A stretch of 59,998 nucleotides of DNA from Oscillospiraceae bacterium (GTDB lineage: Bacteria > Bacillota > Clostridia > Oscillospirales > CAG-272): contig SVSL01000006.1 of assembly GCA_015064315.1 (NCBI GenBank), forward strand, positions 1 to 59,998. The letters are read 5' to 3'. A program made the translations under genes and the position numbers. The notes under the pieces are model-generated. The model worked only from the letters and a program-made list of their open reading frames with translations. It made no database searches and was not told the DNA's origin. The number at the start of each line of letters is the position of its first letter. The stretch's first letter is position 1. Shown piece after piece: positions 15,886 through 18,382 of the stretch.

Positions 15886-15920
15886 GCAAAAAGGTCAGCA
15901 GACAACACGCCTGCTGACCA
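15886..15920 (-). terminator. Intrinsic terminator after the serpin gene
   Basis: Read on the minus strand: a 9-bp stem GGTCAGCAG/CTGCTGACC with a 9-nt loop, followed by TTTTT. Confidence 0.85.
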
Positions 15921-15925
15921 AGTGA

Positions 15926-17371
15926 TTATTGAGGTTGGTTTACGATACCTACAAACAAAGGAAGGTTCGAGGGCGAATAGATCACGAACAAAAATGGGCG
16001 GTCAACCACAAAATCGATTTCTTCATTTGGAGACAAGGCGCCGTCTGTTTCCGTTATAATGGTATATGCAGCAGCGACACAGCCCTCTTCATCGATCTGA
16101 ACGCGAGCTCCGTGGGTTGCTTGTTCAACCTTTGCCATATAGGCTTCAGGAATAATGGAGGAAAAATCAGCCACCGTTGGATCAAAAACGTCTGTCACCC
16201 CCAACGACTTAAGCCCCTCCTCCAGATCGATCTGCGAGGAAACGTCAAATTTTGGAAGCGAGAGATTTACAAGAACGTACTTTTCGTTTTCCCATCCACT
16301 TTGACCGATCACAAAGTCCATGCATTGGGAATCGGCAAGCAGATCTTCTGCCGAAGTGCCTTCGTCGGGAAGAACGATCTTCATTCTGCCGCTGTCCTTA
16401 AAAAACAGCGTTACGGCGCCAAAGTGATCTCCCCAACAATAACTCATACCGTCGCTTTTGCTCATAAAAGCGCTTTCAACGTCTCCATTGGGAGCATGAA
16501 AAGTGCCGGTATAGGTAAATCCTTTGTTGAACACGTCGCTCCACGAGGCTTCAAACCAAACAGTGCTTACGATCGCGAGAAAGGTATCGGGTGTCATTTT
16601 CAGGTTGTTGATCTGATCCTCCAAAAGTCCTCCCGTTTGCTGATTCATCCAGATCTGCAAAGCCTTGTTATAGTCTTCGGAGCCCATTTCTCCGCGAAAG
16701 GTAGAGGCGTAATATTCTCTTGACAAAATTCCAACCGTATCTTCTTGATAATCCAAACGATCATCGCTTAACCAAAGAGAGTTTGCCAAAAGGCAGGTAG
16801 TTCTGCCATCGTCCCGATAATTCGCCTTCCAGATGGCGTTGGCTTCTTGGCGCAGCTGATGAACACCGGGAGCCCCCAACAGATCCAAGATCTGGGCACG
16901 GCTGTTCCCTTCCGTTGTCTCCGCCAGCATCGCAAGCGCCATATAGACGTTCAAAGGAGAATAAACCATGTTTTCTTCTTCATTCCCCGAAAGAAAAACG
17001 GGAATGCTTTGTGAGAAAAAGTGATCGAGATCAATATTCATGGACTTGTAATCCTTTGTCAGCTCTTCGATCGACTCTCGCCATTCGCTCCAATTTTCAT
17101 TGCTGTATTGTACCGTCTCCGGATAAAACGCGGCACCTATGGCATAGTTGTTTAAAAAATCCTCATCCGAAAGAGGAATGTGCTCCTCTTCCGCAGGAGT
17201 CCAAAGCTTCCCCAAAAGCGCCCCGATCAGAATCGCGCAAGCCAAAACTGCGGCAATTCCCGAATAAAACCACTTGGATCGATATATCTTTTTTGGGATC
17301 GGCTTTTTGGCGTCTTGGATATATTCATCCTTCACCATTCCAATGGCGTCAAACAGTTTATTCGATTTCAT
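15926..17371 (-). CDS. Membrane-anchored serpin with anti-sigma-like N-terminus
   Basis: 481 residues. Residues 1-33 are cytoplasmic and carry LFDAIGMVKDEYI, like the start of membrane proteins that partner ECF sigma factors in gut Clostridia. A single membrane helix spans about 35-54, then ~50 linker residues, then a full serpin domain (about 110-481) on the outside. Serpin hallmarks seen are VYSPLNVYMALAMLAETT, TVWFEASW, the hinge EEGCVAAAYT near 428-437, and DRPFLFVIY with FVGIVNQP at the end. The hinge has small residues, so loop insertion and protease trapping are plausible; hinge position P14 is Cys rather than Thr/Ser. The start overlaps the sigma gene stop by 4 bp (ATGA). A role as protease sensor or anti-sigma factor is inferred. 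Confidence 0.88.
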   Translation of the reverse strand: MKSNKLFDAIGMVKDEYIQDAKKPIPKKIYRSKWFYSGIAAVLACAILIGALLGKLWTPAEEEHIPLSDEDFLNNYAIGAAFYPETVQYSNENWSEWRESIEELTKDYKSMNIDLDHFFSQSIPVFLSGNEEENMVYSPLNVYMALAMLAETTEGNSRAQILDLLGAPGVHQLRQEANAIWKANYRDDGRTTCLLANSLWLSDDRLDYQEDTVGILSREYYASTFRGEMGSEDYNKALQIWMNQQTGGLLEDQINNLKMTPDTFLAIVSTVWFEASWSDVFNKGFTYTGTFHAPNGDVESAFMSKSDGMSYCWGDHFGAVTLFFKDSGRMKIVLPDEGTSAEDLLADSQCMDFVIGQSGWENEKYVLVNLSLPKFDVSSQIDLEEGLKSLGVTDVFDPTVADFSSIIPEAYMAKVEQATHGARVQIDEEGCVAAAYTIITETDGALSPNEEIDFVVDRPFLFVIYSPSNLPLFVGIVNQPQ

Positions 17372-17934
17372 AACAGTTCCTCCTTTTCCAAATACTTTCT
17401 CAGTTTTTCCCGCGTGCGGTGAAGCATGGATTTGACCTTGCTTGGGCTGAATCCAAATTGCTTCGCGATGACCTCAAGTGAATCCACGTACCAATAGCGG
17501 CAAAGGAAAACACGACGTTCGATTTCGGAAAGCTCTTCCAAAAAAGAATTCAGCGCTTCGGCGAGGATCTGCGCATCCAATTCCTTTTGCAGATCATCAC
17601 GCGCGGAAAGGCATTCCTCCAGCTCCTCCAACGCCAGCGTAAGATTGCTTCCACCTCTTTTTTCGGCGTTTCGGGCGCGCAGCTTATCAATGGAAATGCG
17701 CCGCGTGATCTTGCCGAGAAAGGTAGAAAGAATTGCAGGACGGTGCGGCGGCATACTGTTCCATGCATCCAAGTAGGTGTCATTGACACTTTCCTCAGAA
17801 TCCTCGCGGTTTCCAAGAATGTTATAGGCAATGGCATAGCAATAGTCTGCGTATTTGGAAGCGGTTTCCTTAATTGCTTGTTCAGAACGTTCCCAGTAGA
17901 GCTCTACAATGCGATGATCATCCAATGGTTTCAC
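17368..17934 (-). CDS. ECF-type RNA polymerase sigma factor
   Basis: 188-residue alternative sigma factor. Region 2 spans residues ~20-90 (NILGNREDSEESVNDTYL is sigma 2.2-like and ITRRISIDKLR is near 2.4). Region 4 is at ~125-180, with a helix-turn-helix around AKQFGFSPSKVKSMLHRTRE. It starts DDHRIVELYWERSEQAIKET, typical of a large Clostridia ECF group whose genes are followed by a single-pass membrane partner. Here the partner is the serpin. GGAGGTGA precedes the ATG. Target promoters cannot be read from this window. Confidence 0.93.
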   Translation of the reverse strand: MKPLDDHRIVELYWERSEQAIKETASKYADYCYAIAYNILGNREDSEESVNDTYLDAWNSMPPHRPAILSTFLGKITRRISIDKLRARNAEKRGGSNLTLALEELEECLSARDDLQKELDAQILAEALNSFLEELSEIERRVFLCRYWYVDSLEVIAKQFGFSPSKVKSMLHRTREKLRKYLEKEELL

Positions 17935-18036
17935 CTCCCACAGAAGTATTTTGAAGGTCCTTCATCTATCTACTCGTAAAAAAATCGAATTGGTTGCACG
18001 ATTTTTAAAAAATATTAAAAAAATTGCAAAAAGGGG

Positions 18037-18155: not shown

Positions 18156-18192
18156 AAAAAAGGAACTTTTGTCTACCAAAAGTTTCTTTTTT
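18156..18192 (+). terminator. Intrinsic terminator of tRNA-Val
   Basis: 16-bp stem with one G-T pair (A-run plus GGAACTTTTG against its complement), a 5-nt loop and a T-rich 3' arm, beginning three bases after the CCA end. Confidence 0.9.
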
Positions 18193-18198
18193 GTTTAT

Positions 18199-18382
18199 CC
18201 AAGCCGCAGGCTTGGCATATCATCACCGCGCGAAGCGTGGTGCATATCATCAAGGGCGGCAAGCCGCCCTTGTATCTCATCACGCGCCAGCGTGCATATC
18301 CCTGCGGCTTGATGATATCCAGCCCTACGGGCTGATGATATACCGCAACGAGTTGCAGATGATATACAAGGCTTACGCCTTG
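18199..18382. repeat. Array of seven short palindromes with mirrored spacers
   Basis: Hairpins of 12-22 bp (18199-18215, 18224-18242, 18251-18272, 18281-18294, 18320-18334, 18345-18356, 18367-18382), each of different sequence, are separated by CATATCATCA-type spacers in the left half and by the complement TGATGATAT in the right half. CAAGCCGCAGG of the first hairpin recurs inverted as CCTGCGGCTTG at 18301-18311, so the whole array can also fold on itself. Similar small-palindrome arrays occur in gut Clostridia; their function is unknown to me. Confidence 0.85.

Follow-up and report, generated by a model that had tools for sequence, protein, structure and literature searches.

The closest precedent for the system described here is RsiV, the membrane anti-sigma factor of sigma-V in Bacillus subtilis, which is both the receptor and the inhibitor of one enzyme; sigma-V transcribes the sigV-rsiV-oatA operon, and its induction yields more of the inhibitor (PMC5014341). 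In Clostridium thermocellum, several SigI/RsgI pairs per genome share one type of inner domain and carry swappable outer sensors, and RsgI is cut within its helix by RseP, after which ClpXP reads an XAA site (PMC12203970). Production of a serpin that responds to proteases and is autoregulated has been described for the SerRK-SerU system of the gut bacterium Bifidobacterium breve (PMC7822027). Gut bacterial serpins are also known from Eubacterium siraeum, whose siropins are inhibitors of neutrophil elastase and proteinase 3; pancreatic elastase and subtilisin were not inhibited by them (PMC5127057). In tengpin, which has been placed in the group T serpins, the native state is stabilised by an N-terminal tail docked near strand s1A (PMC8233489). 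A search of the open literature by titles and the beginnings of abstracts, with subscription papers outside its scope, returned no description of a serpin joined to an anti-sigma factor.

Here, we describe a locus of the Oscillospiraceae in which an ECF sigma factor gene overlaps a gene for a membrane-anchored serpin. The locus lies in a stretch of DNA of 59,998 nucleotides, hereafter called the window.

The sigma-serpin operon

The operon comprises the following features:

17368..17934, minus strand: ECF sigma factor gene, ORF of 188 aa with a GTG start
15926..17371, minus strand: gene of the membrane serpin and putative anti-sigma factor, ORF of 481 aa with an ATG start
15893..15919, minus strand: terminator-like hairpin of 12 pairs at the end of the two-gene operon

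The two ORFs overlap by 4 bp. The initial annotation had described a sigma factor gene overlapping by this length the gene of a serpin protein with one membrane helix, and the ORFs, the Pfam matches and the hydropathy profile all agree with it, the serpin being near-complete. Regions 2 and 4 and the Sigma70_ECF profile all match the sigma protein above the Pfam cut-offs, and with these two regions only and a length of about 190 aa the protein belongs to the ECF sigma factors. Three terminator-like sites occur in the window, against 2.9 expected from shuffles, and the hairpin behind the serpin gene has the longest stem among them. A tRNA-Val gene lies divergently upstream of the operon and an M18 aminopeptidase gene follows it; just past the tRNA-Val gene, positions 18175-18300 of the window are rich in palindromes (e.g., GGGCGGCAAGCCGCCC). 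The serpin occurs a single time in its own draft genome, which is 81.5% complete.

Conservation of the gene pair

Of 295 genomes searched across the family, 179 contain a serpin. A relative of the sigma factor adjoins the serpin in 24 of the 30 kept loci (own locus included), in 56 of 80 wider stretches under a stricter count (these 56 from 49 genomes), and in 52 of the 80 loci from named GTDB genomes, i.e., the best 80 of 271 relatives from a contig scan with alignment A1; all three locus sets consist mostly of the strongest serpin matches, and these counts are therefore not unbiased rates. The conservation across species that the initial annotation had proposed to survey is thus seen across genera. 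Under a looser count of the 80 wider stretches, a sigma relative lies within the set distance for 62 of 85 serpin ORFs, including three distant-only matches, L143 (where a gene intervenes) and, in L088, the two fragments of a broken copy. The pair is present in at least 47 of the 295 genomes (with G261), and the linked loci span 17 genera of the window's family, both numbers resting on the stronger serpin matches. Judged from these genomes, the sigma-serpin pair is beyond a chance neighbourhood, and we regard the pair and its anchor (see below) as firm.

The contig scan gave no relative with a single protein as query and 271 with alignment A1. Among the best 80 of these are members of the Oscillospiraceae, the Lachnospiraceae, Acutalibacter and others, many of them from herbivore guts, and also Pseudoflavonifractor phocaeensis An507. 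No serpin relative was found in viral contigs, and the plasmid search gave 18 records, each below 60% identity and none with 80% query coverage. A phage search returned two records at about 25% identity, MT835510.1 and MT835777.1, both of them unannotated records from human faeces that encode serpin-like stretches. Tandem sigma-serpin pairs were observed in L088 (and also in L215), where the upstream serpin copy is split across two frames.

The inner anchor and its sibling proteins

The serpin protein contains the following parts:

17273..17371, minus strand: cytoplasmic anchor, residues 1-33, the putative sigma-binding part
17201..17269, minus strand: single membrane helix, about residues 35-57, from hydropathy
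15932..16984, minus strand: serpin domain, residues 130-480, predicted outside (PF00079)

This is the layout of a membrane anti-sigma factor, with its gene beside that of the sigma factor, an inner N-terminus, one helix and an outer domain, according to the topology predicted from hydropathy. The best 19-residue hydropathy window starts at residue 35 (mean 2.33), and the next best outside it (1.57) falls inside the serpin fold. The N-terminus is short and charged; its residues 6-18 read LFDAIGMVKDEYI, and the consensus of the anchor is MKs.kLqDAIGmvDedLv..A...pKK.k..k.kW...vAAmLa. Residues 1-60 gave no match in Pfam or NCBIfam, and thus none to a Class I (zinc) anti-sigma domain.

We built an anchor profile from residues 1-56 of 21 sigma-linked serpins. 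At a threshold of E 1e-3, its matches in the two ORF sets include 106 of the 117 sigma-linked serpin ORFs and two of 55 unlinked serpins (L179 and L223), in which only the helix is matched and which both lie in operons of another ECF type. Three ORFs that are not serpins are also matched, all of them directly behind relatives of the window's sigma factor. Within the two ORF sets from the studied loci, the profile found no anchor-like N-terminus away from any sigma factor; identical N-termini in unrelated proteins, which the initial annotation had named as evidence against its proposal, were thus not seen, all matches being associated with a sigma factor. Besides, the distances between anchors correlate with those between sigma factors at r 0.62, compared to 0.46 for the serpins (94 pairs; bootstrap interval for the difference, 0.08 to 0.27).

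The own genome (2.24 Mb) contains 11 relatives of the sigma factor, itself included, and eight of the ten further ones are at 39-49% identity. Behind 30 of the 32 serpin-less sibling sigma factors of the genus set there is an ORF of at least 80 aa, in 23 cases with the same 4-bp overlap. The anchor profile matches 13 of 29 sibling proteins with other outer parts at E 1e-3 and 25 of 29 at E 10, with no match in L034, L035, L038 (M23-bearing) and L054. Since the siblings share the anchor to a variable degree, and since the anchor tracks the sigma factor better than the serpin does, the serpin appears to be one swappable sensor. On these comparisons, a modular ECF/anti-sigma family carries many different outer parts, of which the serpin is one, and an anti-sigma function of the anchored serpin is likely.

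A large paralogous set of ECF sigma factors was observed in the own genome (L032-L039) and in the genus (L045-L069), nearly all with a membrane protein behind them. These membrane proteins have a short, similar start and a differing outer part (LRR, M23, beta-propeller, mostly unknown). A Pfam scan of ten of the sibling proteins found LRR_5 in L039 and M23 in L038, both of the own genome, and a beta-propeller in L045 of G309; L034 has an fn3 match below threshold, and the remaining six match no Pfam family.

Evolution of the pair and joins to other regulators

In the sigma tree, 98 of 129 rows are labelled 'serpin-linked' (counting L143 despite its intervening gene), and all non-serpin rows come from one genus. 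This label changes seven times, compared to a mean of 27.9 after shuffling, and none of 500 shuffles gave a number as low. At least five of these changes are forced by well supported branches. The small number of changes points to a pairing that is stable, with the sensor swapped in some cases. Supported branches of the serpin tree require at least eight interchanges between anchored and free forms; this tree contains noise from long branches, loci at contig ends and a small number of wrong labels. The 'free' forms include the contig-end loci L124, L169 and L203 and the first ORFs of L070 and L151, where the sigma factor is maybe cut off or under the score limit; L207 is labelled free, yet another ECF type adjoins it, and L176 was put in the other-ECF group on an unconfirmed sigma factor.

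Serpins are also joined to a second ECF type, which we take to be SigW-like, in L099, L107, L111, L179, L207 and L223, and to another ECF sigma factor in L126. In L127, L135 and L138, a protein with an XRE-type HTH and sigma region 4 lies upstream of an anchored serpin (L127:6275-6862, minus strand), and region 2 has no Pfam match in the hybrid of L127; the Pfam scan of these joins covered L107, L126, L179, L207, L223 and L127. Three-gene operons consisting of a sigma factor, another membrane protein and, in third place, a lipoprotein-like serpin were seen in L128 and L143, and the anchor profile matches the middle protein in L128 and gives no match in L143. These operons suggest that serpins may also serve as outputs. 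The lipoprotein-like serpin in L118 is found downstream of a long ORF, the end of which is presumably dockerin-like, as seen from its motif.

Promoter and likely output

A typical ECF promoter has an AAC-like -35 and a CG-type -10 element. The operon carries a promoter of this shape, read from its sequence:

17959..17998, minus strand: ECF-type promoter TGCAACC-N15-CGAGTAGATAGATGAAGG, before the sigma gene

Upstream of the sigma genes of the pairs, a TGYRACC-like -35 element is followed by about 15 bases, a CG-type -10 element and TATAGGTGAAGG-like DNA. This motif exceeds the threshold in 41 of 61 upstream regions, compared to seven of 1500 windows drawn at random from the same loci, and some of these windows may contain true promoters; the motif is not present in the other 20 regions. 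When the genus under study was left out of training, 30 of 57 regions still passed, and these came from 13 of the 17 genera.

A search of the own genome for the full motif, with a 15-base spacer and as many as three mismatches, gave a single match, and the reversed control gave none; weaker or differently spaced promoters would escape this search of an 81.5% complete draft. A looser pattern gave six matches, compared to three for the control. One of these is the promoter of the window, and the other five, lying inside open frames of at least 753 bp, were rejected as further targets. Across 22 genomes, a common pattern was found in 12 places, compared to five for the reversed control, and eight of these coincide by place with sigma-serpin promoters. 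The other four (L236, L239, L243 and L244) all lie inside long open frames and were likewise rejected, but this absence of other targets means little, because the pattern found the pair's own promoter in only eight of the 22 genomes. For the unlinked serpins L077 and L086, the motif scored 1.2 and 13.7, respectively, and neither is claimed as a target.

Of the promoter survey suggested in the initial annotation, the shared motif was borne out for the sigma-serpin pairs, but no second strong copy was seen in the own genome. As the only strong copy found is that of the operon itself, the likely output is the replacement of the serpin, and the operon is most simply read as a circuit that has itself as its main strong target. 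The sibling operons have related yet differing -10 cores, which could keep the sibling circuits apart.

Serpin domain and reactive loop

The Pfam profile PF00079 (Serpin) matches residues 130-480 with 9.6e-61 and covers profile positions 18-370 of 370. Together with the matches in the PDB, this places the outer domain in the serpin superfamily. Tengpin was the best PDB match in a single-sequence search, and in a profile search at 1e-30, which gave 123 sequences, conserpin came ahead of tengpin; neither alignment extends to the tengpin tail. Within the domain lies the following segment:

16010..16084, minus strand: hinge and reactive loop, residues 430-454, predicted P1 Gly444 and P1' Ala445

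In the family, the hinge follows the pattern G-[CV]-x-A-A-A-[YF]-T, the typical loop is G-[CV]-T-A-A-A-[YF]-T-V-M-x-A-[AC]-G-A-A-M-P-P, and its length from the P15 Gly to the next Phe is mostly 23, the loop counts leaving out 24 of 153 loops missed by the pattern. Alignment with conserpin bearing the antitrypsin loop places P1 at the Ala before Ala. For loops of exactly 23 residues, the residue predicted at P1 is small (A, S, G, T or C) in 55 of the 57 sigma-linked serpins and in all 29 others. The predicted P1 Gly of the window's own serpin departs from the A-G-A-A bait of the family.

Known inhibitory serpins have the hinge ExGTEAAAA from P17 to P9. The hinge of the window, EEGCVAAAY, has the canonical P17 Glu, P15 Gly and P12-P10 Ala but deviates at P14 and P9, which are mostly Cys or Val and Tyr or Phe, respectively, throughout the family. 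The initial annotation relied on a serpin that changes shape when its loop is cut, and the hinge, as far as its residues tell, would be compatible with loop insertion. Given the unusual P14 and P9, protease inhibition is likely but not assured. The small predicted P1 residues suggest elastase-like targets; since siropins inhibit some elastase-type enzymes and not others, the target enzyme cannot safely be guessed. A subtilase of the bacterium itself was considered as the target and rejected, as a search of the own draft genome for the families S8 and M50 gave no S8 match.

Membrane helix, stalk and signal transmission

Three further features bear on how a signal could cross the membrane:

17249..17254, minus strand: Ala40-Ala41 in the helix, from alignment A1 and a larger anchor set
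17042..17149, minus strand: pre-serpin extension, about residues 75-110, with an Ala-x-Tyr-Pro motif
375-1724 of the window: RseP-like M50 homologue with PDZ domains

The Ala-Ala pair at 40-41 occurs in 21 of 21 rows of A1 and in 78 of 94 anchors, and it resembles the XAA sites read by ClpXP in RsgI fragments. Of the 29 siblings with other outer parts, 28 have a hydrophobic residue followed by Ala-Ala in their helix, compared to 22 of 50 leader helices of unlinked serpins, an enrichment that falls short of proof because such helices are rich in Ala. The presence of the RseP-like gene is expected, as M50 was matched in all 14 control genomes. Taken together, the Ala-Ala pair in the helix and the RseP homologue point to regulated intramembrane proteolysis.

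The pre-serpin extension is present in anchored and in many free serpins and therefore belongs to the serpin. From the helix to the serpin core, the window protein has a stalk of about 70 residues, the length of which varies among relatives. The initial annotation supposed that the shape change would be passed straight through the helix, which is unlikely as stated with such a stalk in between. By analogy with tengpin, a docked stalk that lets go upon loop insertion is a conceivable trigger. An AXA motif occurs near the stalk in 27 of 73 sigma-linked and five of 34 free serpins. Even with a long linker, it keeps its place next to the Tyr-Pro motif, i.e., it follows the serpin fold and not the membrane, and a first cut by signal peptidase at this motif, as in RsiV, was considered but is not relied on. 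No site-1 protease or cleavage site emerged from the motif.

Proposed mechanism and alternatives

We propose a self-regulated switch in which the membrane serpin is both the receptor and the inhibitor of a protease, and in which its consumption frees the sigma factor and restocks the serpin, a reading that we consider fairly probable. It builds on features that the DNA itself carries, namely the pairing, the conserved anchor, the hinge with its small-residue bait, the promoter, the terminator-like hairpin, the Ala-Ala pair in the helix and the RseP-like gene. The membrane serpin would be the cognate anti-sigma factor, holding the sigma factor by its short inner anchor, and its outer domain would be bait, sensor and inhibitor for a broadly elastase-like protease that prefers small residues. 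A cut of the reactive loop would leave the serpin spent and irreversibly changed in shape, and this change would expose or alter the stalk and permit a first cut. RseP would then cut within the helix, and the freed anchor would be degraded by ClpXP through its exposed Ala-Ala end. The freed sigma factor would transcribe its own operon and thus restock the single-use serpin, and with it the brake. Sigma binding, protease sensing, its transmission, the order of the cuts and restocking as the main output are steps that we infer from these features; release of the sigma factor through proteolysis by RseP and ClpXP is probable, and for protease sensing with restocking we lean towards acceptance. 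In a more specific version, which we hold only tentatively, loop cleavage would flip the serpin once, freeing a docked stalk like that of tengpin for intramembrane proteolysis, and the sigma factor would mostly re-order the serpin. In that case, the consumption of the inhibitor would be counted directly in transcripts.

Other readings of the same data have to be weighed against this switch. The serpin might be a tethered protective shield of the cell surface, the anchor of which senses synthesis or insertion, so that scarcity would free the sigma factor and the copy number would be controlled without protease sensing. The operon's own promoter as the only strong copy found, the existence of unlinked, lipoprotein-like serpins bearing the same bait and the 4-bp overlap of the two genes would all fit such a shield, but the siblings with a similar start carry outer parts without an evident inhibitor role, e.g., a beta-propeller (L045) or an LRR (L039), so that sensing by the outer part looks like a habit of the family. 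With the hinge and bait being conserved as well, we regard the shield as unlikely.

Serpins undergo a large and irreversible change of shape. This speaks for the original proposal that the change is carried by the helix to the anchor, which loosens with no proteolysis involved, as do the conserved pre-serpin extension and the docking of the N-terminal tail of tengpin on the native body (PMC8233489). On the other hand, the roughly 70 residues from helix to core in the window protein, variable among relatives, and the Ala-Ala pair, which favours intramembrane proteolysis, make this direct mechanical coupling quite improbable. We give equally little credence to a serpin that has lost inhibition and senses by binding a ligand, maybe not a protease. 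The non-canonical P14 and P9 and the predicted P1 Gly of the window are what such a receptor could show, but P12-P10 are mostly small, P8 is Thr, the loop length is mostly 23, P1 is small in nearly all such loops, and the bait is common to linked and unlinked forms.

Comparison with known systems

The self-regulated sigma/serpin switch would share with RsiV a membrane anti-sigma factor that is receptor and inhibitor at once. It differs in that the lysozyme-sensing domain of RsiV, which binds the active site of the enzyme, is no serpin, and in that oatA is a further output gene; Serpin is the only Pfam match in the outer part of the window protein, which thus has no match to an RsiV-type lysozyme-binding domain. 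RsiV also receives its first cut from signal peptidase (PMC6066255). With RsgI, it would share several pairs per genome with exchangeable outer sensors, but SigI forms a separate sigma group and is not an ECF sigma factor. The periplasmic domain of RsgI cleaves itself, its sensors are mainly for carbohydrates, and the available part of the RsgI report names no serpin sensor (PMC12203970). No RsgI profile was among the Pfam and NCBIfam matches of the window's pair, and its sigma factor fits the ECF models. The available part of the siropin report mentions no sigma partner (PMC5127057), and SerRK-SerU is described as a two-component system with a separate serpin-like protein, with no fusion to an anti-sigma anchor (PMC7822027).

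If the serpin is wired to the sigma factor as proposed, it would have a concrete role and a reporter-ready assay, and gut commensals could directly read the protease activity of the host or of rivals. The wider anchor family, with its beta-propeller, LRR and many unknown outer parts, would be a test bed for swappable sensors that drive ECF sigma factors in gut clostridia. Overall, RsiV both senses and inhibits its enzyme and SerRK-SerU autoregulates a serpin, and the present system would unite both ideas in one protein.
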